From NCBI GenBank assembly GCA_023150835.1, contig JAKLKB010000101.1:1-25372 (forward strand): 25,372 bases of DNA, given 5' to 3'. The stretch comes from Myxococcota bacterium. Its GTDB lineage: Bacteria; Myxococcota_C; UBA6777. Under the pieces are notes generated by a model. The model searched no databases, had not been told where the DNA came from, and saw only the letters and a list, made by a program, of their open reading frames with translations. The position numbers and the translations under genes are program-made. The first letter of the stretch is position 1. Each line of letters begins with the position of its first letter. Below are positions 2,515 to 25,235 of this stretch, piece by piece.

Positions 2515-2529
2515 AGACGGGAGAGAGCG

Positions 2530-2625
2530 ATGCCGGAGTTATCGGGTTTTGTAGATATCCGAGTGGAGCCGATGGATGTGATCTTGTGTGTGACGTTGGA
2601 GCGCAAAGAGGCGCGAAATGCGTAG
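2530..2625 (+). pseudogene. Truncated enoyl-CoA hydratase-like N-terminus
   Basis: An ATG 15 bp after the ceramidase-like gene, preceded by a purine-rich gggagagagcg, opens a 31-codon frame ending at TAG (2623-2625). Its peptide runs VDIRVEPMDVILCVTLERK and then EARNA, which resembles the first strand of crotonase-fold proteins (pattern V-x-VTLxRPEARNA), where the family continues for about 230 more residues. Nothing in the next 26 bp resumes the family in any frame, and the convergent TPR gene ends at 2652. I infer that this is the 5' remnant of an enoyl-CoA hydratase/isomerase gene whose body was deleted. A short functional peptide is the alternative. The match rests on about 20 residues. 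Confidence 0.45.
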
Positions 2626-2651
2626 ATAACGTTTGTCCACCCGTCGCCCGA

Positions 2652-10460: not shown

Positions 10461-10580
10461 TCATGCGAGATCCGCAGGGTGTGTGATCGCAAAACGTAGG
10501 GGCAGACAGGTGTGGCTGCCCAACAATCGGGCGTCTACACACTATCCTTCGGGAACACTTCACTCGGATATCGTATCATT
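10461..10580 (+). repeat. Palindromic intergenic repeat, copy A
   Basis: This copy carries the 5' arm (gcgagatccgc), GTGTGATCG (10481-10489), the core hairpin GGGGCAG...CTGCCC beginning at GTAGGGG (10496), a GGGCGTCTAC segment, and the 3' arm cggatatcgtatc. The partner of GTGTGATCG has decayed here to gggaacac. The copy lies downstream of the UPF0104 gene. Its 3' arm contains, in reverse, the TGA that ends the minus-strand reading frame at 10576. Confidence 0.85.
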
Positions 10581-11154
10581 CGGCAAAAAGCCCTGATTCA
10601 AGGGACTTTTGCAAAAAATCCAGACGCCCACCAAGAACAGCGCACCGAAGCGCAAGAAAGCGAAGAACGTGTTGGCGCAAGAGCAGAAAGTCTTCGAGGC
10701 GAGCAGCGAGGCACTCGCAAAGCCAGAGGCGATCGTGTTCTTGGATGGCCCAAAAACAGACGTGGCGCGCTGCTTGGACAGGATCTGTCGAAGCCATCGA
10801 AAGGCCAAGATAAAAAGCTCTATGCGCCGGAGATTCGGCGTCTTGAGAGCGTTGAGAGCGTTGGATTTCTTGGTGCAAGCCATGAATCGAAGACAGCGGT
10901 TGTTCACCTTCGATCCATTGGCGAAGCGTATCAAGAAGCTTTTGCAACAGGGCGTAATGGGGAAGTTCGAGCCATCGGGCTTGACGAAGGATTCGCTGGA
11001 ACCCGTCACAAGCGAAATGATAGAGCAGATGGTGTGGAATCTCGTTGGGACGCAAAGCCTCAAACAAGCGCTTGGCAGAAGGAACCGCAGGATCGCGTAG
11101 CCATCGTTGCCAAAACAACAGGCTTTCGGCGAGGCGAGGCGGTCGAACAGACAA
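10576..11154 (-). CDS. Hypothetical helical protein (strand uncertain)
   Basis: This open frame of 192 residues starts at a TTG (11154) with no clear ribosome binding site. Its product is Leu-, Arg- and Trp-rich with regular amphipathic helices, for example LPHYALLQKLLDTLRQWIEG and LAARLEDFLLLRQHVLRFLA. No family was recognised. Its TGA stop lies in the 3' arm of repeat copy A, at exactly the offset at which protease 1 ends in copy D, and this would make copy A lie between convergent genes, as copies C and D do. Against it, only about one third of codons begin with a purine, unlike other genes here. The opposite strand is also open at 10609-11100. Probably only one of the two is real. Confidence 0.42.
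   Translation of the reverse strand: MSVRPPRLAESLLFWQRWLRDPAVPSAKRLFEALRPNEIPHHLLYHFACDGFQRILRQARWLELPHYALLQKLLDTLRQWIEGEQPLSSIHGLHQEIQRSQRSQDAESPAHRAFYLGLSMASTDPVQAARHVCFWAIQEHDRLWLCECLAARLEDFLLLRQHVLRFLALRCAVLGGRLDFLQKSLESGLFAE
10609..11100 (+). CDS. Alternative hypothetical ORF antisense to 10576-11154
   Basis: This 163-residue frame begins at TTG with AGGGA four bases upstream and reads the same triplets as the minus-strand frame in the opposite direction. By hand count about 62% of codons start with a purine and G is the commonest third base, both closer to the confident genes of the window than the minus frame. The product is basic (about one fifth Lys/Arg) with a Lys-rich N-terminus and an amphipathic C-terminal half (DPLAKRIKKLLQQGVMGKFE). 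No family was recognised. It is listed because strand choice cannot be settled from this sequence alone. Confidence 0.3.
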   Translation: MQKIQTPTKNSAPKRKKAKNVLAQEQKVFEASSEALAKPEAIVFLDGPKTDVARCLDRICRSHRKAKIKSSMRRRFGVLRALRALDFLVQAMNRRQRLFTFDPLAKRIKKLLQQGVMGKFEPSGLTKDSLEPVTSEMIEQMVWNLVGTQSLKQALGRRNRRIA

Positions 11155-11157
11155 AAA

Positions 11158-11241
11158 AACGTAGGGGCAGCCCCCCGTGACTGCCCAAGGATAGGGCGTC
11201 TACGCACGACCCTTCGATCACACACCACACAGATAACGGAT
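11158..11241 (+). repeat. Palindromic intergenic repeat, copy B (5' part missing)
   Basis: The core GTAGGGGCAG...CTGCCC hairpin (11161-11186), GGGCGTCTACGCACGACCC and CGATCACAC (11215-11223) are present. The 3' arm has decayed to cagataacggata. The 5' arm with GTGTGATCG is replaced by unrelated sequence, so this copy is truncated. Confidence 0.8.
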
Positions 11242-11644
11242 AACCCCCCTCCACACGAGCGGGGTTTGGTGCAAAGCTGTGAGGCGAGTCACAGAAAAAG
11301 TTCTTTGATCTTGGGGCGATGAATAATTTTTGACATTTGTGGTCAGAGCAGGCACAACCAAGAAGACCGCAGCGCTCTTCGTCAAAACACAGGAGAAACG
11401 CTGCGCTTTGGGTTTGGCCTCGCGAGAGGTGAAGTCAGAAGCAAGCATGAGGCTTTTGTGTGGTTTGGCGTGTGGCCTTTTTCGCCAAGGACGGGGTAAA
11501 AGGCCAAGACATCGACGGGACCAAGGAAGAAGCTGCGGTAGAATGTGTTGCTCAAATGTTGTTTGTGGAAGATGTATTGTTTTTCTTATCGTGTGTTAGA
11601 TCTCAGCGGGATCGGGAGACCGATCAAGCGAAGGGATGGGAAGT
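11242..11644. other. Gene-free stretch before the HEAT-repeat gene
   Basis: No convincing gene was found in this 400-bp stretch; the frames present (for example plus 11330-11599 and 11460-11756) have random-looking composition and run into the next gene out of frame. A perfect inverted repeat CTGTGA (11277-11282) / TCACAG (11289-11294) with a 6-base loop is visible, without a T-run on the plus strand. TTGACA at 11330-11335 matches a -35 box but has no -10 at the right distance. Confidence 0.45.
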
Positions 11645-12409
11645 ATGGATAAATCATCAAAGTCGAGGCAGCGGTTGGGATTGGTCGAGACACCTGTACG
11701 CAGTGCAGAAAAAAGCGGAACGACGAGCGGGATGCGCCCCTCCTTTGGAGGCGTAACGGAGACAGCAAGCCGCCCGCAAATGCAACAAGCCACTGCCATT
11801 GTGGGAGTAGGTGTTCAGACACGACCCAAGATGCCCGAAGTTGCGCAGCGTGGACACGCAAACGCCGATCTTCAACGTCGGCGCGAAAGCGCCCTGCTGA
11901 TGATGCAGCTCAACGAAAAACGTCGCCGAGACCAACAGATGGGCTATTACGAAGCCCATCGCCGTCGTGAGCCGGGCTTGGAGTCCTTGCGGTTTCAAGC
12001 GTTGTCGGGTGCCAACGTGCAAACGCGGATGGAAGCCCTTGAGGGCTTGGTCGCCTTGCAACCACACGCAGCGGTGACGTACTCTACGTTGCAAAGTGTC
12101 CTTGAAGAACGGCAGGAAGCGCCCGAACTACGAGTGAAAGCACTCGAATTGTTGGCGGCGTACCCTCCACCGCTCGAAGAGGATCGATTGATGGAGTTGA
12201 TGATCGCGAGTGCGTGGGACAAAGAGATTACTGTGCGGAAAGCAGCGACGCGAGCTCTTGCAGCGCATCCTGACCCGCGCTCACTTGGCCCGTTGATGGG
12301 GCTTTTGGGAACCAAAGATCCAGAGCTTCGCCAACTTGCCGAGCGTTCTTTGTCCAAGATCGCAGCGGATCTCGGACCTCCGCCCGAACGTATAGACGGA
12401 GATACATAA
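11645..12409 (+). CDS. HEAT-repeat protein
   Basis: The ATG at 11645 is preferred over 11636 because aaggga lies about 8 bp before it, whereas the same purines abut the earlier ATG. The 254-residue product has a Ser/Thr/Gln-rich, probably unstructured N-terminal region to about residue 75, and a basic helix with RRRESALLMMQLNEKRRRDQ. Paired helices of HEAT type follow from about residue 115: MEALEGLVALQ, VKALELLAAYPPP, VRKAATRALAAHPDP and LRQLAERSLSKIA. HEAT repeats form protein-binding solenoids. There is no signal peptide, membrane span or catalytic motif, so it is probably a cytoplasmic scaffold. The DASS transporter gene follows by 59 bp in the same direction. Confidence 0.8.
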   Translation: MDKSSKSRQRLGLVETPVRSAEKSGTTSGMRPSFGGVTETASRPQMQQATAIVGVGVQTRPKMPEVAQRGHANADLQRRRESALLMMQLNEKRRRDQQMGYYEAHRRREPGLESLRFQALSGANVQTRMEALEGLVALQPHAAVTYSTLQSVLEERQEAPELRVKALELLAAYPPPLEEDRLMELMIASAWDKEITVRKAATRALAAHPDPRSLGPLMGLLGTKDPELRQLAERSLSKIAADLGPPPERIDGDT

Positions 12410-12468
12410 GGTGGAGCGCGCCTTGTCGTGGGCGTTGCCTCCTCACCACGCCAAGGAGATTTCCAAAG

Positions 12469-14295
12469 ATGCACGAAGCTCACGCAAAAAGTTCGATGGG
12501 AGTGGGGTTTTGGGTCGGGCTGCTCGGTTTTTTGTTGTTGTGGGGAGCGGTACAATCAGGCTTCTGGCAGCCTCGTTCGGGCCATGAAGGTCTTTTGATC
12601 GGTCGGATGTTGGCGATTACGTGGTTGATGGCGGCTTGGTGGATGTCCGAAGCCTTGCCGATCCCGATTACTTCGCTGTTGCCGTTGGTGTTGCTTCCGA
12701 TGGCGGGGATCATGTCTGGCGACAAAGTCGCGCACGAATACACAAATGAAGTGATCTTTTTGTTTATGGGGGGATTTTTTCTTGCGTTGTCTTTGCAAAA
12801 GTGGGGCGTACATCGTCGGATGGCGCTGCATCTGGTGTTGCGAACGGGAGGGGGCCATCCGCGTTGGCTGATCTTGGGATTTATGGTGGCTTGTGCTTTT
12901 TTGTCGATGTGGATGAGCAACACAGCGACGGTGGTGATGTTGATGCCGATCGCCGTCTCTGTGATCCATCTGATGAAAGAAGAACAAGGCGATGCCGCCA
13001 TCCAGATGGGACAAGTTTTGTTGTTGGGCCTCGCCTACGCCGCAAGCATCGGTGGAATGGCAACCTTGGTGGGGACACCGCCCAACCTTTCGTTTGCGCG
13101 AATCTATAAGATGTATTTCCCAAACGCCCCCGAAGTCTCGTTTGTTGAGTGGCTCAAGTTTGGATTACCCGTCACCTTTGTGCTGTTGCCGACCTTTTGG
13201 CTTTTCATGGTGTTTGTGCTGTTCCGTCGCCCTCTTCAAGAAGTACGAGCGGGCGGAAACGTGCGAGCGTGGTTAGAAGAACAGCTCGCAGCGATGGGGC
13301 CGATGCGCGTCCAAGAAAAAGCTGTGTTATTGGTCTTTGCGATCACAGCCTTCTTATGGGTGTTTCGCGTCGATATCCAAATGGGTCCATCGTTTCGCAT
13401 CCCGGGTTGGATGGGCGCTTTGGGCCTCTACCACAACGTCAAGACGGTACGCTACGAACCACTCAAAACGGCCACCCAGTCCAAACAACACCCAACGACT
13501 CCAAACAAGCCGAGTGTTGCGCTGTCCAAGCCGAGTGTTGCGCTGTCCAAGCCGAGCGTTGCGCTGTCCAAGCCGAGTGTTGCGCTGTCCAAGCCGAGTG
13601 TTGCGCTGTCCAAGCCGAGTGCTGCGCTGTCCAAGCCCGTCCGAGCGTTGCCCAAATCAGGTAGCGAGTTGTATGTACGACGAGAGATCGTGCGGCGCAA
13701 GCCGCTGTTTGGGGACGGTGTGGTCGCGATGATGATGGCGCTGTTGTTGTTTTTGATGCCGGCAGGCGGTGGAGAGCGCTTGTTGGACTGGGAGAATGCG
13801 AAAGAGATCCCGTGGGGGATGTTGTTGCTGTTTGGAGGTGGATTTGCCCTTGCTGCGGGGATTCAATCAAGCGGGATGAGTGCATGGATTGGTGAGATCT
13901 TCCGTTGGCCGGGATTATCGGCCTTTGGGACGTTAGGGATCATCTTGTTTCTCTGCTTTTTGATCACCTTTGTGACGGAATTCACCTCAAACACCGCCAC
14001 GACGGAGATCTCTTTGGCAATGATCGCGCCTGTGGTTGCGACGTTTGGGGGGACGGGTGTGCATCCTTATTTGTTGATGGTGCCGATCACGATCTCGGCT
14101 TCGTGCGCATTTATGATGCCGGTCGCAACGCCGCCAAACGCGATCGTGTATGCCACAGGGATCGTCGGGATGCGTGCGATGGTGCGTGCAGGGTTTTGGC
14201 TCAACCTGATCTCGGCGGTCTTGATCGCGCTTTTGTTGTACGGGATCTTTTTGTGGATGGGGATTCCGCTGCGAGTCAAGCCCGATTGGCTTTGA
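12469..14295 (+). CDS. DASS/SLC13 sodium:anion symporter with repeat-expanded loop
   Basis: A 608-residue inner-membrane transporter of the divalent anion:Na+ symporter family, which takes up dicarboxylates such as succinate, or sulfate in some members. Both signature SNT motifs are present, SNTATVVMLMP (150-160) and TSNTATTEISL (from 506), as are both PPN motifs, GTPPN (202-206) and ATPPN (553-557). These place the sodium and substrate sites as in VcINDY. The family is usually about 450-500 residues. The extra length lies in a loop between the two inverted halves (about 325-408), which contains seven tandem copies of a KPSVALS-like heptapeptide (347-395) encoded by a 21-bp DNA repeat. Start: AAGGAG lies 10 bp before the ATG. 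The exact substrate cannot be read from the sequence. Confidence 0.9.
   Translation: MHEAHAKSSMGVGFWVGLLGFLLLWGAVQSGFWQPRSGHEGLLIGRMLAITWLMAAWWMSEALPIPITSLLPLVLLPMAGIMSGDKVAHEYTNEVIFLFMGGFFLALSLQKWGVHRRMALHLVLRTGGGHPRWLILGFMVACAFLSMWMSNTATVVMLMPIAVSVIHLMKEEQGDAAIQMGQVLLLGLAYAASIGGMATLVGTPPNLSFARIYKMYFPNAPEVSFVEWLKFGLPVTFVLLPTFWLFMVFVLFRRPLQEVRAGGNVRAWLEEQLAAMGPMRVQEKAVLLVFAITAFLWVFRVDIQMGPSFRIPGWMGALGLYHNVKTVRYEPLKTATQSKQHPTTPNKPSVALSKPSVALSKPSVALSKPSVALSKPSVALSKPSAALSKPVRALPKSGSELYVRREIVRRKPLFGDGVVAMMMALLLFLMPAGGGERLLDWENAKEIPWGMLLLFGGGFALAAGIQSSGMSAWIGEIFRWPGLSAFGTLGIILFLCFLITFVTEFTSNTATTEISLAMIAPVVATFGGTGVHPYLLMVPITISASCAFMMPVATPPNAIVYATGIVGMRAMVRAGFWLNLISAVLIALLLYGIFLWMGIPLRVKPDWL
13507..13653 (+). 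repeat. 21-bp in-frame tandem repeat inside the DASS gene
   Basis: Seven adjacent 21-bp units start at 13507, 13528, 13549, 13570, 13591, 13612 and 13633. The first five encode KPSVALS, the sixth KPSAALS and the seventh the degenerate KPVRALP. Because the period is a multiple of three the transporter frame is kept. Near-identity of the units suggests recent expansion and likely copy-number variation between strains. Confidence 0.97.
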
Positions 14296-14310
14296 TCACG
14301 AATCAAAACG

Positions 14311-14448
14311 TACCATACGAGATCCGCCCGTTGTGTTACCATGAAGAGGTAGGGGCAGCCCCTGTGGCTGCCCGATAGCAGGGCATCTACGCACGACCCT
14401 TCGATTACAGATCTTTCGGATATCGTATCCCTCGGATATCGTATCCCT
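14311..14448 (+). repeat. Palindromic intergenic repeat, copy C
   Basis: It starts with the 5' arm atacgagatccgcc (from 14315) and continues through GTAGGGGCAGCC...GGCTGCCC (14349-14372), GGGCATCTACGCACGACCC and the 3' arm. The 3' arm is duplicated: the 16-bp cggatatcgtatccct occurs at 14417-14432 and again at 14433-14448. The outer stem is degenerate. It lies between the convergent DASS gene and the minus-strand gene ending at 14584. The 135 bp after it hold two imperfect copies of a cgaaggaaaggtggatagt-like sequence and nothing else I recognise. Confidence 0.85.
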
Positions 14449-14583
14449 CGAAGGGAAGATGGATAGTCGAATAGCCCGAAGGAAAGGTGGATAGTGAGCA
14501 TGGACAGGAGGTCGGGGTGGGGAAGAGAGATGCACAGAGGCGGTGCATCCGATGGGATCGTCTGATTTGACATTGGGCGGGGG

Positions 14584-15096
14584 TTAGAGGTCGTATCCTT
14601 CGGCGTCGATACCCACTTCGTCGCGGAGTTCATATTTATGGAGTTCATGGAGGAGCTCTTCGCAGAGCTCTCCGAGGTCGGCGTGGGATTCGTCGGTATG
14701 GAAGGTGAGATAGTCGCCCGCTTCTGTTTCAAGTTCGCCGTCGGCTTCGGGGTATTCCCATTCCTTCATCATCGCGAGCGCTTCGCCACTAAAGTCGACA
14801 TCACCGTCGTTGACGAGGACATCGAGTTGGACGCCATCGCGGTTTTTCTTGAGGATCAACAGCTCTGCTTCGTCTTCATCTAGTTCGTACACGGTGAAGA
14901 CCGCGCCTCGACCGGCGTTTTTAGAGAACTCGCGTACGATATCGCGGATCTCGCGAACTTGTGCAGTATCGCCGTCATCCACAACTTCTTCGACGATCAC
15001 GGTTTGTGCGGGTGGCTCGGCGCTGCTGTTGAAGAAGACAAAGTAGATCACAAGGATCACGACGAAAACGATAACACCGATAACAACGGGACTCAT
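14584..15096 (-). CDS. Small acidic membrane-anchored protein
   Basis: The start at 15096 is chosen because GGAGGTT precedes it by about 6 bp; an in-frame start at 15123 lacks this. The 170-residue product begins with one transmembrane helix (residues 3-22, PVVIGVIVFVVILVIYFVFF) and has almost no cytoplasmic head. The rest is strongly acidic and soluble: a linker rich in Glu, Asp and Val, then about 120 residues with alternating strands and helices (AVFTVYELDEDEAELLILKK, GELCEELLHELHKYEL). No family was recognised. The topology suggests a periplasmic domain held at the inner membrane or, if the helix is inverted, a cytoplasmic one. It is transcribed in the same direction as the CAP gene, with its own promoter candidate in the gap. 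Confidence 0.8.
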   Translation of the reverse strand: MSPVVIGVIVFVVILVIYFVFFNSSAEPPAQTVIVEEVVDDGDTAQVREIRDIVREFSKNAGRGAVFTVYELDEDEAELLILKKNRDGVQLDVLVNDGDVDFSGEALAMMKEWEYPEADGELETEAGDYLTFHTDESHADLGELCEELLHELHKYELRDEVGIDAEGYDL

Positions 15097-15216
15097 GCGT
15101 AACCTCCAACAGTCTGGACCCAAGGTCTATCTTGAGACCTTTTGTGTTTGTTGTTTTGTGCGGGGAGAGATGTCTTGGCGTTGTAGGGAAGATCAGGTTC
15201 CCGCACAGCGCTACAC

Positions 15217-15245
15217 TATATAGGGTTATTGTGCCCGTCTGAAAA
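15217..15245 (-). promoter_or_regulatory. Putative sigma-70 type promoter for the acidic membrane protein
   Basis: Read on the minus strand, TTTTCA (15245-15240) is followed after exactly 17 bp by TATATA (15222-15217). Each matches the consensus at four of six positions. It lies between the CAP stop codon and the gene starting at 15096 and would give a leader of about 110 bases. Confidence 0.4.
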
Positions 15246-15271
15246 GGGGAGAACAAAAAAATCTTTGTGTC

Positions 15272-16591
15272 TCAGAGCGCGGAGACAAACACTTGGACAA
15301 AGTAAAAACGGCCAGATGGGGAGGGATAGGCAGCGATGCCTGTCCAGAGAAGGTCTGGATGGAGCAGATTCTTTCGATGTACGGGGCTTTCGACCCACTG
15401 CCGAAGCGCTTCTTCGGGAGTGTGAGCGACCACGATATTTTCGCGAGCGTTGCGAGCAGGCCAACCAAGCTCTTTGAAACGCTGCGCAAAGCTGCCTTTT
15501 TTGGGGGAGTTGTGCCCAAAGTATCCTTGTTTGACCATCTCCTCGGCATGTTCGTAAGCAAAGCGATCCAGTCGGTGGTGTCGGCGAAAAAGCACAAGTT
15601 CGCGGTGCGCTCGCACCGCATTCAACAGTTCGCACAAACGATGCGCTGCGGTGGTGCTATTAAGCAAAACAGGCCGATGCTTGGGGGCAGAAGAAGCCCC
15701 CCAAAGAGCGTGCAGTTGTTGTTGCAAATGCGTACGCCAAAGGGTTTCGGGGGTGTGTGGCGGCTTGTAGATATCGACCGCCCATTGAGCGGAGATCCAC
15801 GAGCCACGGTGATCACGGGCGATGAACTGGATCTGAAAACGCCCATCACTCGGCGGAATCCATTGAAAAGAGAGGATCTTTCCGATGTATTGGGCCGTGA
15901 GCGTTTGTGTGCGCGCATCTGGATGACCGATCACCACGCTGTCAAATTGAAAAGGCTTAAGAACCCTCGCCCGCAGATGCAGGGCTTGTCCAAAGGCCGA
16001 CCATCGGGGGCTTACAGCGATCTCAACGGCGCGGCGTACGAAAAGGATCACACAGATACGCTGCTGTTTGGAACGGATCGCAAGGCCCATTCGGTTAAAG
16101 CGCTGTTCGGCCAAGCGTTGTGCCAGCGCATCTTGAAGTTGTTTCCACAACAAGGATTCTTGTGTAAAAGCCATCGCAAAGATCTGGAGTTGAAGATCGC
16201 TGCGCCCGCTAAGGGTGAGTGCTGCTTGAACACGTTCGTGGGAAAGCTGACGGCTCGGAGCATGGGCAAGATAGGACGCCAGCAGCACAGCCGCCTCACG
16301 AAGACCGTTGTCCCGCTGCGGCAGATCGTAGGGTTGGGCGTTGTACCAAACAGAGAGTCGTTGCAAAAGCGCTTGTTCTTGTTTACTCTCTGCTTTTTGG
16401 GGCCAAGGTGTGTGAAGGTTGTCGTAATGCAAGGGCCGCGCTTCCGCGAAGAAAACGCCAACAACCAACAGACCACACCCGCCCATCCATATCCGGATCT
16501 GACGCAAGATTTGTTTGCGACGTGTGTTTTGTGCGTTGGCATCGGTCTTTTGGCTTGTCAGGTCATGCGTTGTATTGTGGGAGGCTTGCAT
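15272..16591 (-). CDS. CAP (SCP/PR-1) domain protein with N-terminal anchor
   Basis: A 439-residue protein with a CAP superfamily domain at residues about 310-439. The typical elements are all present: LLNAVRAHREL, HAEEMVKQGYFGHNSPKKG, ENIVV, EEALRQWVESPVHRKNLL and a final FYFVQVFVSAL strand, including the cavity His residues of HAEE and HRKN. CAP proteins are secreted and their bacterial roles are varied and mostly unknown. A basic stretch RRKQILRQIRIW and the hydrophobic MGGCGLLVVGVFFAEA (36-51) form a signal peptide or anchor. Residues 60-300 are a divergent region with a beta-rich, possibly immunoglobulin-like middle part. The ATG at 16591 gives a 35-residue N-terminal extension; an internal ATG at 16486 would place the hydrophobic segment at the start. 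Neither has a strong Shine-Dalgarno sequence. Confidence 0.85.
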   Translation of the reverse strand: MQASHNTTHDLTSQKTDANAQNTRRKQILRQIRIWMGGCGLLVVGVFFAEARPLHYDNLHTPWPQKAESKQEQALLQRLSVWYNAQPYDLPQRDNGLREAAVLLASYLAHAPSRQLSHERVQAALTLSGRSDLQLQIFAMAFTQESLLWKQLQDALAQRLAEQRFNRMGLAIRSKQQRICVILFVRRAVEIAVSPRWSAFGQALHLRARVLKPFQFDSVVIGHPDARTQTLTAQYIGKILSFQWIPPSDGRFQIQFIARDHRGSWISAQWAVDIYKPPHTPETLWRTHLQQQLHALWGASSAPKHRPVLLNSTTAAHRLCELLNAVRAHRELVLFRRHHRLDRFAYEHAEEMVKQGYFGHNSPKKGSFAQRFKELGWPARNARENIVVAHTPEEALRQWVESPVHRKNLLHPDLLWTGIAAYPSPSGRFYFVQVFVSAL

Positions 16592-18638
16592 GATGGATGT
16601 TTTTCTACCCCGTCACAAGGGATGGTTTGTATCCTTTGGGGTGTGTGTTGTAGTGTTGTGGGCGGCGTGTACTCCGTCCACGGAGCCGTTGCCGTGTGAT
16701 ACGTCAGATGATTGCCCCAACGCACAGCGTTGTCAACAGCGCAAGTGCATCGCTCGCGTACGCTGTTCGTTGGCGAGCGCTGCGCTGGTTTGTTTACCAA
16801 GCGAAGCGTGCGTGGATGGGTTTTGCCGCCCCAACAGCACTCCCCAAGGCAAATGCACCGTCAACCAAGACTGCGAACAACCCAAGATCTGCGACACCGC
16901 CGCCCAACGGTGCGTCCGCTGTTTGCGCGACGATGACTGCCCGATATCCGAACGCTGCAATCTCGCCAATCTGTGTACTCCCAAAAACACCGAATCCACC
17001 GCAGAGTCCGTCCCCGATGGAGAGGCCATCCCCGAATCCACAGGCAAATGCGCTTCGGATGTGGACTGCAAAGACAAGCCCAACCATTACTGCGATCTGA
17101 TCGCACAGATCTGCAAAGTCCGCACAGGCTCCTCCTGTCAAAGCGACAAAAACTGCCCAAGCAAGCAACATTGCGTCAACAACGCCTGCACGCTCGGATG
17201 GCGCTCTTGTTCGGCCAGCCCAACGGCTTGTGAAGCCGAATTTGAATGTCGCAACAACCTGTGTTATCCGAAGGTCTGCCAAACCGACGAAGACTGCGAA
17301 CCCGGCCGCCCTTGCAACCAACAATTCGGGCTGTGTCAAGCCGGCCAAGATTGCACCGTCGCAGGTTGTCCAAGCGACGCCCAATGCAACGCCACCACCA
17401 AGCAATGCGAACCCAAACCCGCCGATTGCACCACCACAGGATGCCCCACCGACCAACAGTGCAACGCCACCACCAAAAAATGCGAACCCAAACAAGCAGG
17501 TTGTACCCAAAATACCGAATGTTCCCCTCCCAAGGGCAGTTGCCGCCAAGGCCAATGCCAGACCTGCGCATCGGAGTTCACTTGTTCGAGCGGACAAACC
17601 TGTGATGCCGCTTCGGGACGCTGCCAGACCGCGCAGGCAACGTGCGCCAAAGACGCCGATTGTACGCCCCCTGCGGGCGCTTGTAGCAACAGCCGTTGCG
17701 TCAGTTGCGCAAGCAGCAGCTTGGATTGCACGAACCTTGGAAAGCAGTGTGATCTGGTTTCAGGCCGTTGTGTCGGTGGCACATGTACCGACAACACGGG
17801 CTGTTTGAGTACCCAGTTTTGCAAAAGTGGCGGGTGTGTCGCAAAAGAGTGCGACCCCGCCATCGGACTGGCCTGTGCAGCAGGTGAAACTTGCACCAAC
17901 TTCGAGTGTACAGGCGGTGGCCCACGCACTTGCACGTCCGACAGCGATTGCAAAAACACGCAGTATTGCAAGTCCGGGACATGCACCACCAAAGAGTGTA
18001 GCGCAACACAAACCTGCCCAAGCGGGCAAACCTGCCAAGACTCCCGCTGTGTCGCCTCCCAAACAAAAAAACAATGTACCACCAACACCACCTGCGGAGC
18101 GGGTTCGACTTGTGTTGGCGACGATCCAAACGTCAGTTACGGACATTGCTATCGAACCTGCACAACGCCCGATACACAGGGGATTTGCAAAGCCGGTGAG
18201 ATCTGTGCGCAGATCACCGCGACGCTCACGCTTTGCTTGCCCATCGGTACCAAGCCCACAGGCGCAACCTGCGGTATCGTCGACAACCGATGCGATCTCA
18301 ACAACGTCTGCTTTTTCGCAAGCGACACCGCCACAACCGGCCTTTGCTACAAGCGATGCACCACCGTCGGTAGCGCCACAGGATGCCCCTCCAGCACCTC
18401 CTGCGAAACCATCGGTGTCTCCAACGCTTGTGTCCCTCCCCCCACGCAAAACTACCTCGGAACCTGCGCCGGTATCACCAAGCGCTGCAAATCCCCCAAC
18501 ATCTGCGTCTACACATCTTCGACCGCATCATCCGGCACTTGCTACAAGCCTTGTACAAAGAACTCCGATTGCTCGGGACTTGGTTTGTACGATACTTGTC
18601 AATCACTCCAAAACGGTGGGGGCTTCTGCTATCTTTGA
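16590..18638 (+). CDS. Large Cys-rich repeat lipoprotein
   Basis: The start at 16590 follows GGAGG (16580-16584). The 682-residue product has a lipoprotein signal peptide ending LWAAC, with Cys27 as the likely lipidated residue. Almost the whole mature protein consists of short disulfide-type modules of the form CxxDxDCxxxxxC, for example CTVNQDCEQPKICD and CPTDQQCNATTKKCEPKQAGC. Two neighbouring modules near residues 260-310 are nearly identical, so the array grew by duplication. The modules resemble Dickkopf- or EB-like Cys-rich repeats seen in many Myxococcota surface proteins. No catalytic domain is visible. The last 150 residues lose the regular spacing (for example CRSPNICVYTSSTASSGTCY-like segments). 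It is probably an outer-membrane surface protein. Its start codon overlaps that of the divergent CAP gene. Confidence 0.85.
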   Translation: MMDVFLPRHKGWFVSFGVCVVVLWAACTPSTEPLPCDTSDDCPNAQRCQQRKCIARVRCSLASAALVCLPSEACVDGFCRPNSTPQGKCTVNQDCEQPKICDTAAQRCVRCLRDDDCPISERCNLANLCTPKNTESTAESVPDGEAIPESTGKCASDVDCKDKPNHYCDLIAQICKVRTGSSCQSDKNCPSKQHCVNNACTLGWRSCSASPTACEAEFECRNNLCYPKVCQTDEDCEPGRPCNQQFGLCQAGQDCTVAGCPSDAQCNATTKQCEPKPADCTTTGCPTDQQCNATTKKCEPKQAGCTQNTECSPPKGSCRQGQCQTCASEFTCSSGQTCDAASGRCQTAQATCAKDADCTPPAGACSNSRCVSCASSSLDCTNLGKQCDLVSGRCVGGTCTDNTGCLSTQFCKSGGCVAKECDPAIGLACAAGETCTNFECTGGGPRTCTSDSDCKNTQYCKSGTCTTKECSATQTCPSGQTCQDSRCVASQTKKQCTTNTTCGAGSTCVGDDPNVSYGHCYRTCTTPDTQGICKAGEICAQITATLTLCLPIGTKPTGATCGIVDNRCDLNNVCFFASDTATTGLCYKRCTTVGSATGCPSSTSCETIGVSNACVPPPTQNYLGTCAGITKRCKSPNICVYTSSTASSGTCYKPCTKNSDCSGLGLYDTCQSLQNGGGFCYL

Positions 18639-18668
18639 ATTCGAGGCTTCTGCTATCTTTGAATTCGA
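18621..18668 (+). repeat. 24-bp tandem duplication spanning a stop codon
   Basis: The 24-bp unit ggcttctgctatctttgaat plus tcga occurs at 18621-18644 and again immediately at 18645-18668. The first copy encodes the last residues and TGA (18636-18638) of the Cys-rich lipoprotein. The second copy is therefore downstream of the stop and abuts the Shine-Dalgarno sequence of the next gene. The duplication lengthened the spacer between the genes. Confidence 0.95.
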
Positions 18669-18682
18669 AAGGAGCGCATGAG

Positions 18683-19138
18683 ATGTTTCTCTCAAAGAGA
18701 AGAATTCGACCCAATTTGAAGCAGCATTTCTTTCTATCGATCGGGCTTTTTTCTATGGTAGGCTTCTCGCCCGTGTGGAGTATGCCAAGCAGCCGCCCTG
18801 CCGCCTCCAAACCCTCCTCCCTTTCGGCCAAAACACCCGCTCCCCCAACAACACGCCCTCGCTCGGAGACATCAACGATTTCACGACCTGCTATCGCACA
18901 AAAACCTGCATTCGCGGGGCGATCAGACGCTTTCAAAACAACAGCTTCGCGGCCTGCTATCGCACAAAAAGCCGCCACAACACAACCAATCCGCTCTATA
19001 AACCCGCGATCATCACAAGAAACGGTCGACGAAACACCTTTATTACCGAGCGATTCTCCAATTCGAAGAAAGTTGATCTCTTCGCTTGAACTGACGAATA
19101 GTCAGTCCGACAGAGAGTCGTACGAGATCCGCCCATAG
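18683..19138 (+). CDS. Small secreted Ser/Pro/Thr-rich protein
   Basis: The ATG at 18683 follows AAGGAG (18669-18674). The 151-residue product has a signal peptide with a basic start (MFLSKRRIRPNLKQ) and a hydrophobic stretch (FFLSIGLFSMVGFSPVW). The mature part is low in complexity, rich in Ser, Pro, Thr, Ala and Lys, and carries two copies of SRPAIAQK about 23 residues apart. No domain was recognised. The last residues, SYEIRP, and the TAG stop are encoded by the 5' arm of repeat copy D, so the original C-terminus may have been replaced when the repeat inserted. It lies 44 bp after the Cys-rich lipoprotein gene and is probably co-transcribed with it. Confidence 0.65.
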   Translation: MFLSKRRIRPNLKQHFFLSIGLFSMVGFSPVWSMPSSRPAASKPSSLSAKTPAPPTTRPRSETSTISRPAIAQKPAFAGRSDAFKTTASRPAIAQKAATTQPIRSINPRSSQETVDETPLLPSDSPIRRKLISSLELTNSQSDRESYEIRP

Positions 19139-19222
19139 TGTGATCGCAATACGTAGGGGCTGCCCAACAATCGGGTGTCTACGCACGACCCTTCGATCAC
19201 ACATCACACGGATATCGTATCA
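19117..19222 (+). repeat. Palindromic intergenic repeat, copy D
   Basis: The 5' arm tcgtacgagatccgcc and 3' arm cggatatcgtatca are near-complementary, and the outer stem GTGTGATCG (19138-19146) pairs perfectly with CGATCACAC (19194-19202). GTAGGGGC and GGGTGTCTAC are present, but about 12-15 bp of the core hairpin found in other copies is missing. It fills the gap between two convergent genes. TAG in its 5' half ends the plus-strand gene and TGA in its 3' end, read in reverse, ends protease 1. Confidence 0.9.
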
Positions 19223-21787
19223 CCCCACCCGACGGCGGATCAGGGCCAACAAAAGCAACAATCCCCATCCAAGCGGAAGACTCGGGTCATGGCCTCTCGT
19301 GTCACAGCCACACCCTCCGCCCGACGTGATCAGCGTTTCTGTCGTGGCTTGCTCTTTGGGGCTTTCTTGGACGGGCTCAGGAGTGCTTTCTGGGCTTGCA
19401 TCCGCCACAACCGCTTCTTCGATCACAGGCTCGGGGCTGATCTCGGCAGCGGGTTCAGGTACAAGTTCGGGGGTTGGTTCTTGCGTGGGTTCGGGGGAGA
19501 CGGGTTCGGGGGGAGGCTCATTTTTCTTGGTCGGATCAAAGACACAGATATCGTTTTCGCACTTGTGTTCTGCGGGGCAGCCTGTGTCCGCCTTACAAGG
19601 ACTTCCCTTGGCACGTGCGCAATAGCCGTAAACAGAGCCATCTTGCGAAGTAAACAGCCGCTCACACACGCTGCCTTGGGGACATTCCTTCGCATCGCGG
19701 CACAAGCAGATCGCAAAGTCACCGCCAAAACTCACGCAGTTTCCGTTGCCGTTGCACGGCACCGCAGAAGAGCAGCTTTGCATACACACTGGGCCATCTT
19801 GCTCGCTAGAGAAGCGATTGCAGCTTAACCCTTTTTCACAACGCAACGTCTGGCTGCACGATTGACCGGCCTTTTGCGTACCATCTCCCGGCAAACAAGC
19901 TCCCCCAACACTCGAAGTCGGGCGACACGAAGTCCCCGAAGGACAAGACGTTCCCGCACCTTTGCTCACACAAGCCCCAAATCCATACGAGCCTGTGACG
20001 GTGAGATTGCATTCTTGGTTGGGACCGCAATCGCTGTCTTGCTCACAGATGCAAGCCGAAAAGGTACGGCCCAATCGTTGGCAAGAACCGCCGTTCGCAC
20101 AAGTCCCCGAGCAGGCCCCCAAGCAAATCGCCAAACCACCGCCAAATTGGACGCATTGCAGCCCGGCATCGCACGTGCCTCCCGAACGACACTGGCTTCC
20201 CGCGCTCCCGTCTGGAGGACCACAGCCCAACGCGCAACGGCCCGCTTCTTCTGTTTCAGACACGCACTTGTAACCCGCTGCGCACACTGTTTGTTGGTTG
20301 CAAAAGTCACCGTATTTTCCGCCACCATCGCGCTTACAAACACCGCCCACACACTGATAATCCGATGGACAGGCGTTTTGAGCAGAACAATTCATGCTAC
20401 AGATCGCATTCGGTAAGCAGCGTTTGAGACCTGCGGCGATCTCTTTGCAAGCAAATCCCACAGGACAATAATCGCCCTCGCTGCAACCTTGGACGCAATA
20501 ACCAAGACCGCTATTTCCTCCCAAACAAAAGCCGTTGCTTCCGCATTGATCGCTGCTATAACACGGGCGGCAGATCTGCGCATTGGGCGCAGGCAACGAG
20601 ATCTTGCACACACCATTGTCGCAAACTTCGGAAGGGCCGCACTCTGTGTCAACCGTGCATTTGGCGGGAGGGCATTCGTTTTGCGAAGGAAAGCAGAGTT
20701 TCGCCGTGGCTCCCCCATCATCGGCATGTTCACGACAGAAACTACCACTCGGACAACAATTGTCCGTATTGCAGGGCATCACACAGCGATACCCCTCTTT
20801 TAATTGAAGACATTTTCCGCCACTACAATCGGCATCTTTACGGCAAGGCGCACAGACACCTGTGGGAAGCGAGACAGGTTTACGCTCACAAAACAGGTTC
20901 TTGCAAGTATCGCAGGAGCTACAGTTTTTGTCTTCGGTACAGGGTTTTGGCCCGTCGCTGTACTGATCGAGATAAGGCTGCAAAAAGTCTGTGAGGCTGG
21001 TGTCGACGCGGCAAGAAACGGCTCCCCCGTCGCAGTAGGTTTGCCCTGCTTGGCCGGTTGAAGTGGCGCGGTACGCCGTCGAAGTGACTCCCAAGATCAC
21101 CCATTTTCCGTCGATCATCGTCAGGGCCGGTCCACCCGAATCTCCGTGACAAGCGCTTTTGCGTTGAGCGACGGTAGGATTTTGATCGAAGTGGATGAAT
21201 GTGTTGGTGGCGATCTGATTGAGCGGGATATCCGCAGCGTATTTTTTGTCTGCGGAGACGATGCTTGGGCGGGTTTGGATCTGACCGTACCCCACAACAC
21301 GAACATTTTGGCCGATCAGCGATTGAGGGATCGGAGCCGTGTTGGGTGTGATCGGTGTGACGTTGTTGGCTTTGGTTTTGAGAACCAAGACAGCGATATC
21401 ATAATCCGAATAATTCGAAGTATTGCTTCGGCTGTATTTGGGGTGGGTGACGGCTTGGTCGAGTTGATAATAATCGCTGGTATAAGTACCGTTTGCGGCA
21501 GGAAAATCAACTCGATATTCTACGTTGGTGATGCCATATTGACGCACAGCTTCGACACAATGCGCAGCCGTCACCACAAGCTGCTTTGTCAACAACGTTC
21601 CTGTACAAAAAGGCGAGCGTCTGGCAGTCAAAGCCCCGATGGCAGGCTCGGATAGGTCACCTTGACCGTTGATGATAAACTTTTCTTGTTTCGCAGGCGC
21701 TTCTTCGATGCGTCGACAAGCCCCCGACCAAGCCCCCGCCAAGACCAACGCGGCCAACCAAAAAAAACGAATTCGAACCCGTGACAT
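19220..21787 (-). CDS. Trypsin-fold Cys-rich surface protease 1 (MYXO-CTERM-like tail)
   Basis: The ATG at 21787 follows AAAGGA by 7 bp. The 855-residue product has a lipoprotein-like signal peptide (Cys24, WSGAC). Residues 38-275 form an S1-family serine protease domain with the full triad: His76 in VVTAAHC, Asp130 in DYDIAVLVL and Ser217 in HGDSGGP. The residue six before the catalytic Ser is Ser211, not the Asp of trypsin, so Lys/Arg cleavage is not predicted. About 450 residues of Cys-rich modules follow (CRKDADCSGGKC, CTVDTECGPSEVC and others), then a Pro/Glu-rich linker. The end, GGGCGC, then a hydrophobic helix and RRR, resembles the MYXO-CTERM sorting signal. The protein is probably displayed on the surface. 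It is a paralogue of the next gene upstream. Confidence 0.88.
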   Translation of the reverse strand: MSRVRIRFFWLAALVLAGAWSGACRRIEEAPAKQEKFIINGQGDLSEPAIGALTARRSPFCTGTLLTKQLVVTAAHCVEAVRQYGITNVEYRVDFPAANGTYTSDYYQLDQAVTHPKYSRSNTSNYSDYDIAVLVLKTKANNVTPITPNTAPIPQSLIGQNVRVVGYGQIQTRPSIVSADKKYAADIPLNQIATNTFIHFDQNPTVAQRKSACHGDSGGPALTMIDGKWVILGVTSTAYRATSTGQAGQTYCDGGAVSCRVDTSLTDFLQPYLDQYSDGPKPCTEDKNCSSCDTCKNLFCERKPVSLPTGVCAPCRKDADCSGGKCLQLKEGYRCVMPCNTDNCCPSGSFCREHADDGGATAKLCFPSQNECPPAKCTVDTECGPSEVCDNGVCKISLPAPNAQICRPCYSSDQCGSNGFCLGGNSGLGYCVQGCSEGDYCPVGFACKEIAAGLKRCLPNAICSMNCSAQNACPSDYQCVGGVCKRDGGGKYGDFCNQQTVCAAGYKCVSETEEAGRCALGCGPPDGSAGSQCRSGGTCDAGLQCVQFGGGLAICLGACSGTCANGGSCQRLGRTFSACICEQDSDCGPNQECNLTVTGSYGFGACVSKGAGTSCPSGTSCRPTSSVGGACLPGDGTQKAGQSCSQTLRCEKGLSCNRFSSEQDGPVCMQSCSSAVPCNGNGNCVSFGGDFAICLCRDAKECPQGSVCERLFTSQDGSVYGYCARAKGSPCKADTGCPAEHKCENDICVFDPTKKNEPPPEPVSPEPTQEPTPELVPEPAAEISPEPVIEEAVVADASPESTPEPVQESPKEQATTETLITSGGGCGCDTRGHDPSLPLGWGLLLLLALIRRRVG

Positions 21788-21808
21788 CTGTCCATCCTTT
21801 CGATCAAA

Positions 21809-21829
21809 CAGGCGCTTCCGTTGCGCCTG
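21809..21829 (-). promoter_or_regulatory. Leader hairpin of protease 1
   Basis: In the protease 1 leader CAGGCGC and GCGCCTG form a perfect 7-bp GC-rich stem with a 7-base loop, about 22 bases before the start codon and followed by TTTG. It could affect translation or transcript stability. It may also be chance. Confidence 0.35.
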
Positions 21830-21953
21830 CAACAAATCACTGTAGTCTATTTCGATGGCTGAAATCTCTTTTGGAATTGGTATTTGGGCGAGAAGATCAA
21901 CACATCCTGAAACGCAGCGGAGACACACTAGGCGAGGCCTGACACAAGATGTT

Positions 21954-21968
21954 GTTCAAAGATTGAAC
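21954..21968. promoter_or_regulatory. Palindrome GTTCAA-N3-TTGAAC upstream of protease 1
   Basis: The perfect palindrome GTTCAAAGATTGAAC is centred 174 bp upstream of the protease 1 start codon. The identical 15 bp occurs at the matching place upstream of protease 2. Two 6-bp half-sites separated by 3 bp are typical of sites bound by dimeric regulators. The regulator is unknown. Confidence 0.6.
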
Positions 21969-22000
21969 GGCTTTATGGCGAAAACCCTCGATTCGGCGCA

Positions 22001-22130
22001 GTAGTGCGAAATCCGCCCATTGCGTGATCGTAAAGAGGTAGGGGCAGCCACAGGGGTCTGCCCAACAATAGGGCTTCTACAGCGGATCGCGTCTCCCCTT
22101 CGATCACACTGCTCTCGGATATCGTGTGAT
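22001..22130 (+). repeat. Palindromic intergenic repeat, copy E
   Basis: This is the longest unduplicated copy. It has the 5' arm gtgcgaaatccgccc, GTGATCG (22024-22030) pairing with CGATCAC (22101-22107), core GTAGGGGCAG...CTGCCC, GGGCTTCTAC and the 3' arm cggatatcgtgtgat. About 10 bp are inserted after CTAC relative to other copies. It lies between the upstream region of protease 1 and the 3' end of protease 2, ending 2-3 bp before the protease 2 stop codon. Confidence 0.88.
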
Positions 22131-22132
22131 GT

Positions 22133-24757
22133 TCAGAGGCGTTTTCGCCGCCCCCACAAGAACAGCCCAAAGACAGCGAAGAAAGCAAGCCATAAGGAAG
22201 AATCTTTCTCGCCCGACGCGACAGAACAACCACAGCCTCCGCCGAGGATCTTTGGTTCGGTGGTGATCTCTGGGCTGTTGTTTGAAGAGTCGGAAGGCCC
22301 GGCATCTTGGGCGCTCTCTTCGCTTACAGCCATCGCTTCTTCGGGTGCGCTCTCCGCTGCCTGTTCGACCGCAGGCTCAAAAAGCTCAGGGGTCGGTTCG
22401 GTCGGCGTCTCGGAGGGCTTTTCTTCGACGGGTTCGGTAGGTTTTGCGAAGACACAAGCACCCGCGTTGCAGGTGTAGTCTTTGGGACAATCCTTGTCTG
22501 CGGTGCAATTGGCGTTGAATGCGGGGCGACAGATGCCGACCCCTTGATCACGAAAGACCAGATCGCATTGCTTTCCAAGGCCACAATCTTGATCGCGCTG
22601 ACAGACGCAAAGCAACAGTCCACCGCCAAAGTCCGCACATCCACCGCCGTTAGAACAAGTGTTGTTGGAATCGCAAGTCTCCATGCAGCGGGGGGTTCCG
22701 TCAAAGTTATAACAAGCCAGTCCCGACTGACAACGCAAGGTGCGGCTACAGATCGCACCTGCGCGCAAATCCCCGTCTTCAGGGAGACAAGACTTGCTTG
22801 ACGAAGCCGATCGACACACCAGCGGATCGGGGCAAGGCGGCGGGGCTTTTGTTTTGTCGACACATCCACCAAGCGCCGAAGAAGCCCATCGGTTGATGTT
22901 GCAGAATTGGTCTGCTTTGCAGTCGCTATCGCTGCGACAGACGCACACCGTGATACCCTGTTGGATGTTGGTACAGATCCCGCCGTCCGCACAGGCTTGG
23001 CCGATGTTGGTACAATCTTTCATACAAGCAGGAGTGCGTGTACCGAAACAAGAAAGGCCCGTATCACAGGCACGATTGCTGCCACAAGCATTCCCCGCAA
23101 CAAGGCCATTGGGAGCGCAATTCAAGGCACAGCGGCCACTTCCATCATCTTCGGACAAACAGCGGTAGTTGGGCGCACAAGTGAACCCATCCGCACAAAA
23201 ATCACCGTCTTTTCCGCCCTCATCGCGTTTGCAGCTTCCTCCGCTACAGGTGTATCCGTTTGGGCAAGCCGTCACATCATCGCAGCGCATAAAGCATCCT
23301 GCTTGGGGGATACATTGTTTCGTGCCTTGCGTGAGTTGCGTACAAAGGAAGCCCTCGGGGCAATAATCGCCTGCACCGCAGCCTTGGACGCAATAACCCA
23401 AACCACTCCCCGGCTCCAAACAAAAACCGACGCCGCAATCGGCGCTACTCTTACAAGGTCGGCAAAGTTGAGCGATCGGCGTGGGGCGCTCGATCTTGCA
23501 GACGCCTTGTGTGCAAAGCTCGGCAGGACCGCAGTCCGCGTTGGTTTGGCATGACGCAGGTGGGCAAACCCCGTTGGAAGGGCGACAAGAAAGCGTGGCT
23601 TGTGCGCCTCCCCCTGCGACAGTTTGGCAGATCCCGCCGGATGGGCATTGATAGCACGCGGCGTCTGTACACGGCTGCATACAGCGAAAGCCTTCGGATG
23701 TACGCAAGCATTGGCCGCTAAAACCGCAATCTGCGTCCGTGGCGCAAGGCTTACAGTATGTTGTGGCGCTGACGGTTGCGGCCCCACAAGCCCCTTGTTG
23801 GCACGCTCCACAAGCCCCGCAATCAGCGTCTGTTGTGCAGGTTGGCGGAGTGTCTGCGTAGCGTTTTAGATAAGGCTCCAAAAAGGCGATATTCACATCC
23901 AATCGCGCCGATACACCGGCAGAATCGCAAAAGGTCATGTTGGTTTGTGGGTCAGGCGTAGCACCTTCGACCACAGAACTGACGCCGAGAATATATTCCA
24001 CGCCGTTGACGGTGTACAACGCAGGCCCGCCCGAATCCCCGTTGCATACGCTTTTTTTGGTGGCTTTGTCCCAATGACGAAAAGACCGAGGCCGGATCTC
24101 ATCAAGCGGGATCATCGCGGATTGTTTGCTTTGCGCGGAAAGCCGCTGGGGTTGGGTTTGAACCAGCCCATACCCGACCAGTTTCAAATCCGTTGTCAAC
24201 CAAGTCGTTGGGATCGCGGTTCGGTTGACAGGGACGGGAATCACCCCAGAGACGGGCTGTTTGAGTATCCAGATCGCAACATCGTAGTCGGAATAAGCTT
24301 GCACAGAAACGCTTCGGCTGTAGCGAGGATGCGCAGCCGAATCTTGGACCTCGTACAACGCCGTCGTGAATGTGACGCCGTCGGCGTTGGGCGTATCGAC
24401 ACGGAAGCGAAAGTTTCCCAGATCCTCTGCAACGCCCTCCACACAATGGGCCGCTGTCACGACAAGTCGGCTGCTCAACAAAGTACCTGTGCAAAAGGGC
24501 GAATATCCGCTTCCTGCGCGCCGCATGAGAGCGCCGATCGCGGGATTGGAGATATCTTGCGCCCCGTGAATGATCGAGCGGCGGGTTGTTTCATAAGCAG
24601 ATGGGGACGGCACGCGCTCACACCCCCCGCTCCACAACCCAAGCAAGCAGACGACCCAAACCAACCTCCAAAAAGGCCGATGCACCAAGATCTCGGAACC
24701 CAAAACCATTTTCCTTTTTTGGGTGGTATTTGAAACAAGAAGTGGGGTATGCAACAT
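22133..24757 (-). CDS. Trypsin-fold Cys-rich surface protease 2 (MYXO-CTERM-like tail)
   Basis: The start at 24757 is chosen because GAAGGA lies 6-7 bp upstream and because it puts the shared palindrome at the same distance as in protease 1. An ATG at 24709 would give a more usual signal-peptide length but has a poorly spaced ribosome site. The 874-residue product has a lipobox WSGGC (Cys46 with this start). Residues 62-305 are an S1 serine protease domain with His104 (VVTAAHC), Asp159 (DYDVAIWIL) and Ser242 (NGDSGGP). The specificity position is again Ser (236). Cys-rich modules, a Glu/Pro-rich linker, GGGCGC, a hydrophobic helix (LWLAFFAVFGLFLW) and GRRKRL complete it. The domain order matches protease 1 throughout, so the pair arose by tandem duplication and has since diverged. 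Confidence 0.88.
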   Translation of the reverse strand: MLHTPLLVSNTTQKRKMVLGSEILVHRPFWRLVWVVCLLGLWSGGCERVPSPSAYETTRRSIIHGAQDISNPAIGALMRRAGSGYSPFCTGTLLSSRLVVTAAHCVEGVAEDLGNFRFRVDTPNADGVTFTTALYEVQDSAAHPRYSRSVSVQAYSDYDVAIWILKQPVSGVIPVPVNRTAIPTTWLTTDLKLVGYGLVQTQPQRLSAQSKQSAMIPLDEIRPRSFRHWDKATKKSVCNGDSGGPALYTVNGVEYILGVSSVVEGATPDPQTNMTFCDSAGVSARLDVNIAFLEPYLKRYADTPPTCTTDADCGACGACQQGACGAATVSATTYCKPCATDADCGFSGQCLRTSEGFRCMQPCTDAACYQCPSGGICQTVAGGGAQATLSCRPSNGVCPPASCQTNADCGPAELCTQGVCKIERPTPIAQLCRPCKSSADCGVGFCLEPGSGLGYCVQGCGAGDYCPEGFLCTQLTQGTKQCIPQAGCFMRCDDVTACPNGYTCSGGSCKRDEGGKDGDFCADGFTCAPNYRCLSEDDGSGRCALNCAPNGLVAGNACGSNRACDTGLSCFGTRTPACMKDCTNIGQACADGGICTNIQQGITVCVCRSDSDCKADQFCNINRWASSALGGCVDKTKAPPPCPDPLVCRSASSSKSCLPEDGDLRAGAICSRTLRCQSGLACYNFDGTPRCMETCDSNNTCSNGGGCADFGGGLLLCVCQRDQDCGLGKQCDLVFRDQGVGICRPAFNANCTADKDCPKDYTCNAGACVFAKPTEPVEEKPSETPTEPTPELFEPAVEQAAESAPEEAMAVSEESAQDAGPSDSSNNSPEITTEPKILGGGCGCSVASGEKDSSLWLAFFAVFGLFLWGRRKRL

Positions 24758-24823
24758 CAAAAATCCTTCTGTCCTGTCTGTCCAAAGAGCAACAACACGC
24801 GCAGAAAGGTTGGATGTGGGCCA

Positions 24824-24856
24824 TAAAAAAGCGTTGCGAATCGCTCCCCCCGCAAC
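24824..24856 (-). terminator. Terminator-like hairpin in the protease 2 leader
   Basis: Read on the minus strand, GTTGCG (24856-24851) pairs with CGCAAC (24838-24833), followed by GC and six T (24830-24825). This lies between the shared palindrome and the start codon of protease 2, so it could act as an attenuator or, less likely, end a transcript from upstream. The stem is only 6 bp and the loop is 12 bases. Confidence 0.3.
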
Positions 24857-24927
24857 AGACCTTTTCCAACGCCCCAACCAAACGGCGCAAAACAAAACGA
24901 ACGTAGAACATACCCAAGAGGCTCGCT

Positions 24928-24942
24928 GTTCAAAGATTGAAC
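24928..24942. promoter_or_regulatory. Palindrome GTTCAA-N3-TTGAAC upstream of protease 2
   Basis: This is identical to the site at 21954-21968 over all 15 bp and one flanking T. It is centred 178 bp upstream of the protease 2 start at 24757, against 174 bp for protease 1. The leader sequences between site and start show no obvious similarity by eye. Confidence 0.6.
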
Positions 24943-25159
24943 TGATTCATACGTGCTCGATGTTCGGCACAATGTCTACGGCTCTCTTGGCAAATCTCGA
25001 TGACATCTGTTTTTCCCGTTGGGTCAACATCACCGAGGGCTTCGGTATTCTTTTTTCAGACCGTCCTCTCGCTACATGACAGTTGAAGAAAACAACGAAA
25101 AATCGAGGGGTTCGTTCAAAACAGATAGCAATGAAGAGGTCAGCGACGCAACAGATCGA

Positions 25160-25186
25160 GGGCAGGCACGGGGGCCTGCCCCTACA
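25160..25186 (-). repeat. Repeat core hairpin, reversed copy F
   Basis: Read on the minus strand this is GTAGGGGCAGGC followed by GCCTGCC, the same core hairpin as copies A, B, C and E but in opposite orientation. The stem bases differ from the others yet still pair. The outer arms are absent. Confidence 0.7.
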
Positions 25187-25187
25187 A

Positions 25188-25235
25188 AACACCGTGTGAT
25201 TTCCAACACGTAGGGGCAACCATGTGTGGTTGCCA
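25188..25235 (+). repeat. Repeat core hairpin, forward copy G
   Basis: GTGTGAT (25194-25200), then GTAGGGGCAACC paired with GGTTGCC (to about 25234), gives a forward core hairpin 20 bp from copy F, so that CCCCTAC and GTAGGGG face each other. The pair forms an inverted doublet upstream of the gene at 25312. Confidence 0.7.

Follow-up and report, generated by a model that had tools for sequence, protein, structure and literature searches.

How repetitive extragenic palindromes (REPs) spread is an open question, and REP-associated tyrosine transposases (RAYTs) are usually taken as their movers. We address this question with a group of dispersed palindromic repeats in a Myxococcota bacterium (lineage UBA6777; GenBank assembly GCA_023150835.1), copies of which lie in a stretch of 25,372 nucleotides (JAKLKB010000101.1, positions 1 to 25,372; hereafter the window) that constitutes contig 38 of a 7.56 Mb draft genome (G000) in 239 contigs. 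Comparisons were made with a congeneric genome (G001) and with three genomes from the same family as the source genome (G002-G004); within the searched collection, the metagenome-assembled genome 'Myxococcota bacterium KLAP109' is the closest named relative (89% identity in a 386-aa protein). Full copies, classes of REP core and long units bounded by terminal inverted repeats (TIRs) were sampled in detail in 1.5 of the 7.56 Mb. The reading that we favor, and consider likely, is that these repeats are frames of the miniature inverted-repeat transposable element (MITE) type with TNA target-site duplications, that they carry a REP as cargo and would be moved in trans by a DDE transposase, and that their core may be edited by a RAYT or by template switching.

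A MITE-Like Frame Around a REP Core

The full element is non-coding, measures about 112-122 nt and has two layers, MITE-like on the outside and, inside, a REP that has a GTAG tag and is accompanied by a degenerate partner in inverse orientation. Its family-1 TIRs read TACGARATCCGC…CGGATATCGTA, and the consensus of 40 copies consists, from left to right, of TACGARATCCGCCCGTTGTGTGATCGTAAAAAN, GTAGGGGCAGCCCCCTGTGGCTGCCC, AANAATC, GGGCGTCTACG, CACTATCCTTCGNNNACACATCACT and CGGATATCGTA. In this 40-copy alignment the outer 12 bases form near-perfect inverted repeats, with 95% of cells paired across the 10 pairs of helix 1. In the second segment, inverted repeats are seen in some copies (GTGTGATCG/CGATCACAC), but many have TGTGTACAC or a similar sequence on the right, with loss of pairing (75%). 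The core is a GTAG-tagged, GC-rich hairpin (GTAGGGGC...GCCC) in which GTAGG is invariant across the aligned copies. In copies of 122 nt, such as L016:10067 and L018:18775, the right half is a second REP, complete and inverted (GGGCGGTTCGCGAACCGCCCCTAC); in most copies it is reduced to GGGCGTCTAC, as expected from the central deletion of an inverted REP pair; such a deletion has been proposed as the origin of 'double foot' REPs (PMC6006769).

Within the window, GTAGGGGC cores occur at 10496, 11161, 14349, 19153, 22038 and 25210 on the plus strand and at 25185 on the minus strand, and a preliminary description of this DNA, made from its letters, had taken these as seven copies (A to G) of one family. 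Copies A, C, D and E do form one family, with the arms and the order of parts that were described (Table 1). Copy B belongs with them but has no left outer arm, and its right end is decayed, while F and G, described as bare cores, are a tail-to-tail REP pair inside a second frame (family 3) whose right end is absent here. REP G begins at 25210 rather than 25188, and D has a deletion in its core (GTAGGGGCTGCCC), not a covarying stem. DNA folding z-scores were -3.6 for A, -2.4 for C, -2.6 for D and -3.2 for F/G, with weaker values for B (-1.4) and E (-1.5). An Rfam search of the window returned no match.

The same description had read the stem substitutions as preserving pairing. Between REP subtypes they do: among 45 distinct cores from all families, the four inner stem positions are paired in 82% of cases, compared with a mean of 70% and a maximum of 77% in shuffles, and the co-changing stems (AGCC/GGCT, AGGC/GCCT, AACC/GGTT, GGTT/AACC, and GTAT/ATAC) would fit recognition of the hairpin by a RAYT. 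Within family 1 they are not compensatory, with 87.7% of cells paired versus 87.6% in shuffles; since shuffled partners pair as often as real ones, the family-1 arms behave as conserved transposon ends and not as a covarying structure.

Target-Site Duplications and Empty Sites

With the element bounded at TACGA...CGTA, a 3-bp TNA stands on both flanks of 48 of the 74 full copies, and its middle base is identical in 31 of these 48 (25% expected, p=1.4e-8), a result that holds for isolated copies alone (25/40, p=1.5e-6). Identical flanking 3-mers were found in 26 of 65 cases, compared with a mean of 9.4 and a maximum of 20 in shuffles, and flank agreement is restricted to positions -3 to -1 and +1 to +3. 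The congeneric genome provides the matching empty sites: at the position of copy A it reads AAGTTTTGTGTATCATTCGG, where the window has AAGTTCCGCGTG-TCA-element-TCA-TTCGG, an exact removal that leaves one TCA, and copy C is likewise absent at its orthologous site. Both signatures of mobility that the preliminary description had proposed to look for are present, and its 'MITE- or REPIN-like' non-autonomous mobile element fits both labels: a frame of the MITE type, bounded by TNA duplications, encloses a GTAG REP core. Two further candidates for empty sites were set aside, namely the orthologous site of copy B, which holds about 400 bp of other sequence, and a site at L026:2327, where the flanks are too different.

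TNA duplications together with inverted repeats are the product of DDE transposases of IS5 subgroups. The TNA duplications thus point to a DDE (IS5-group) transposase, and not a RAYT, as the probable mover of the whole unit. Movement of the RAYT type proceeds without target-site duplication, which the whole unit has, and IS200/IS605 elements, relatives of RAYTs, are without inverted repeats or larger duplications (PMC2817692).

REP Cores in Three Unrelated Frames

Of the 140 REP cores that could be classified in the sampled 1.5 Mb, family-1 frames hold 116, family 3 holds 11 and family 2 at least two, with another 11 located elsewhere, including four at the RAYT locus described below. About 92% are thus inside one of three unrelated palindromic frames. 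Family 2 (TA-GGACTTACGCAGTTG...CAACTGCGTAAGTCC-TA) is a second MITE family, comprising 112-nt copies with a REP and REP-free copies of 164-168 nt with the same ends, and family 3 is a long palindrome, 185 nt in its complete form (GGGTTCGTTCAAAAC...GTTTGAACGGACCC), which contains two REPs arranged tail to tail. The occurrence of REPs in three unrelated frames indicates that REP and frame are separate modules, and from the share of cores inside frames the REPs seem to have spread mainly as cargo. Moreover, copy pairs with 95-97% identical arms differ in their loops, and copy E, compared between the source genome and its congener, is identical at 96 of 105 arm positions and at 18 of 26 core positions, showing that cores change without the arms. 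An 8-bp direct repeat (CGAAGAAC) on both sides of some family-3 copies was left unused, as these flanks belong to a repeat. Another dispersed repeat of about 125 nt, with many matches in the congeneric genome, was observed at L026:18154-18283 and L026:6708-6835.

The RAYT of the Source Genome

A single RAYT was found in the genome (G000:C113:53266-54030, minus strand), scoring above the cut-off for Pfam Y1_Tnp and 58 bits for NF047646, which is below the cut-off of 80. Its motifs PNHIH, WQRNYYEH (WQ) and YILDNP (one letter off YIxNNP) fit the TnpAREP subclass 2.4 / group 4 type, in which NH[IFV]H, WQ and YIxNNP motifs are accompanied by a REP in frame between HuH and Y (PMC6006769). The linker of the RAYT consists of consecutive GGGCAGGCACAAATC units and closes with GGGCAGGCACAGGGGCCTGCCCCTAC; the gene thus carries REPs in frame, and a REP array preceded by left-arm-like sequence lies directly 3' of it. 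In-frame REPs in RAYT genes first looked new to us and have already been published (PMC6006769).

Linker-type RAYTs carrying an in-frame REP or an inverted REP pair between the HUH and Tyr motifs were observed in unrelated genomes (L110-L120: G005, G013, G024, G028, and G033) and at L025:13266-14030 (minus strand). In four genes the distance from the beginning of the PNHxH match to that of the sense REP is exactly 33 nt. A TnpB-like gene (452 aa) adjoining a short Y1 transposase fragment (L008:1501-1584 and 1656-3014) is probably a decayed IS200/IS605 element.

Abundance, Distribution and Genomic Context

The high copy number anticipated from the window is borne out genome-wide, with 811 matches to the core pattern (384+427) versus 24 (10+14) for a reversed-pattern control. 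The congeneric genome has 269 core matches (reversed control 25), and G002-G004 are near background. Similarly, a covariance model of the full element has at least 150 full-length matches in the source genome, 147 in its congener and one weak match in G002, and none in G003, G004 or five distant genomes. Extrapolation from the 74 full copies in the sampled 1.5 Mb suggests roughly 370 in the genome. Contigs C8 and C17 terminate within element sequence that is found near the start of C20 (L016 end, L018 end, and L021:57-180), indicating that the assembly breaks at these palindromes.

Gene contexts were called with a crude gene finder. Only four of the 74 full copies lie inside predicted open reading frames (ORFs). 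Convergent gaps hold 27 of 68 copies, compared with 88 of all 489 gaps (p=1e-4), and divergent gaps hold nine of 68, compared with 110 of 489; in the window, A, C and D are flanked by convergent ORFs. Purging from promoters and genes suffices to account for this bias. The window additionally contains six tandem 21-bp units (13506-13631) in a Na/sulfate-symporter-like gene, encoding SKPSVAL repeats in a linker.

Table 1. Positions of the elements and of their parts in the window, and of family-2 and family-3 copies elsewhere.
Feature	Position	Strand	Remarks
Copy A, full-length family-1 element, TIR TGCGAGATCCGC ... CGGATATCGTA	10464-10575	+	model R1 111.5 bits; orthologous site in G001 empty
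Left target-site duplication TCA, copy A	10461-10463	.	single TCA at G001 empty site
Right target-site duplication TCA, copy A	10576-10578	.	
GTAG-tagged REP hairpin in copy A, GTAGGGGCAGACAGGTGTGGCTGCCC	10496-10521	+	
Degenerate inverted partner (second foot) in copy A, GGGCGTCTAC	10529-10538	-	intact in copies of 122 nt (GGGCGGTTCGCGAACCGCCCCTAC)
Copy B, truncated, with REP core and second foot; right arm decayed, left outer arm missing	11157-11244	+	
Copy C, full-length; right end duplicated at 14433-14443	14316-14427	+	G001 site empty
Copy D, complete arms, core collapsed to GTAGGGGCTGCCC (19153-19165)	19121-19219	+	diverged element near same place in G001
Copy E, full-length, REP core flipped (22038-22063)	22005-22126	+	common to G001
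Family-3 palindromic frame, right-truncated, with tail-to-tail REP pair	25108-25234	+	complete copies in L028, L029 and G001:C210
REP F, GTAGGGGCAGGCCCCCGTGCCTGCCC on minus strand	25160-25185	-	
REP G, GTAGGGGCAACCATGTGTGGTTGCC	25210-25234	+	
Family-2 copies	L029:3609-3720; L029:14881-14992; L076:10546-10657; L031:13986-14151		
Family-3 copies, GGGTTCGTTCAAAA...GTTTGAACGGACCC	L028:14188-14372; L029:5459-5643; L236:41-225; window 25108-25234		

Comparison With Known Systems

The elements share with GTAG-tagged REPs and their hairpin-forming doublets, REPINs (Bertels & Rainey 2011, PMC3116915; Di Nocera 2013, PMC3733652), the GTAG tag, a GC stem of 6-8 bp, high copy number, subtypes that differ by exchanges of paired stem bases, a genomic RAYT and a bias to gene 3' ends. 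Inverted pairs also occur, complete in the 122-nt copies and collapsed in most others. The elements differ in that nearly every REP here forms the core of a larger unit that has TIRs and TNA duplications. Judged from the section of Di Nocera (2013) on repeat association, the closest precedent is the GTAG-15 dimer of Anabaena variabilis, a REP dimer central in a long imperfect palindrome of which no REP-free version was found (PMC3733652). That section mentions neither target-site duplications nor empty sites, and the present case differs from what it describes in sequence and phylum and in having three frames that share REPs. In being short, non-coding, bounded by TIRs and TNA duplications and present in hundreds of copies, the elements resemble TNA-duplicating MITEs of the IS5 group; unlike those, they have an interior that is a REP module and not the remnant of an insertion sequence (IS), and no parental IS was found here in the searches described below. 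Finally, TnpAREP subclass 2.4, or RAYT group 4 (Quentin 2018, PMC6006769), shares the NHIH, WQ and YILDNP motifs, the REPs in frame between HuH and Y, and the 'double foot' REPs, but there REPs are described as RAYT-associated units, whereas here most copies are in MITE frames.

Proposed Mechanism and Alternatives

Under the cargo reading, an IS5-group DDE transposase (of the TNA-duplicating subgroups), itself not found in the assembly, would move the whole unit in trans, and the REP would multiply as its cargo. Exchange, flipping or trimming of the REP core, with the frame staying put, could then be the work of the genome's single RAYT or of template switching at its hairpin. The autonomous partner IS would carry the ends TACGAAATCCGC.

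Several observations weigh against this reading. The search for an autonomous IS with family-1 ends gave none among long TIR-bounded units in 1.5 of the 7.56 Mb of an assembly in 239 contigs, a scope that limits this negative, and none of the five matches to PF01609 in G000 is bounded by the family-1 TIRs. Similarly, PF13340 and PF13359 have no match in G000 or G001. About one third of the copies are without a readable TNA pair, owing to decay or another origin, and a REP-free family-1 copy was not found, which leaves REP into MITE as a presumed nesting order. Transposition itself is deduced from filled and empty sites and from flanks. A DDE_Tnp_1 remnant at G000:C238 was considered as the partner IS and rejected for its other ends (GAGGGTGTTTGCGAAAAAGTG).

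Would a RAYT suffice for the whole unit? In a strict REPIN it would excise and insert the entire palindrome as single-stranded DNA, and the long arms would be extended REPIN flanks, which agrees with the GTAG tags, the inverted REP pair of the 122-nt copies, the recent mobility and a RAYT whose gene has cognate REPs within it and nearby; we nevertheless regard this as unlikely, given that the same kind of REPs occupies three unrelated outer frames and that free REP cores are rare. It has also to be asked whether the elements are retained because they serve, between convergent genes, as bidirectional terminators of transcription or as hairpins at mRNA ends, with their mobility incidental. The excess in convergent gaps, the scarcity in divergent ones and the placement of A, C and D are what such a role would predict, but avoidance of promoters and ORFs accounts for the bias equally well, the stem changes of family 1 are not compensatory, copy B alone fits a terminator consensus through its hairpin, and the congener lacks A and C in its orthologous gaps, all of which makes a terminator role very improbable. 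Lastly, a REP core may have entered one MITE once by chance and now be inert filler with no part for the RAYT. Although nearly all REPs are indeed inside frames, we give this scant credence, as three or more unrelated frames contain REPs, which are also present in tandem arrays and in the RAYT gene, and the cores vary independently of the arms.

Implications for the Spread of REPs

Taken together, duplications of the DDE type on the outside and a RAYT-type hairpin on the inside separate two steps, and suggest that REPs are able to multiply as passengers of a different transposon. A more far-reaching version, that the GTAG REPs of this lineage became high-copy through DDE-transposase MITEs after entering at least three unrelated mobile palindromes, that enzymes other than their RAYT spread them, and that the RAYT only remodels their cores, is put forward tentatively, at somewhat less than even chances. 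If it is true, REP abundance would be no measure of RAYT activity. Passenger spread of REPs thereby becomes testable through empty and filled sites in related genomes.
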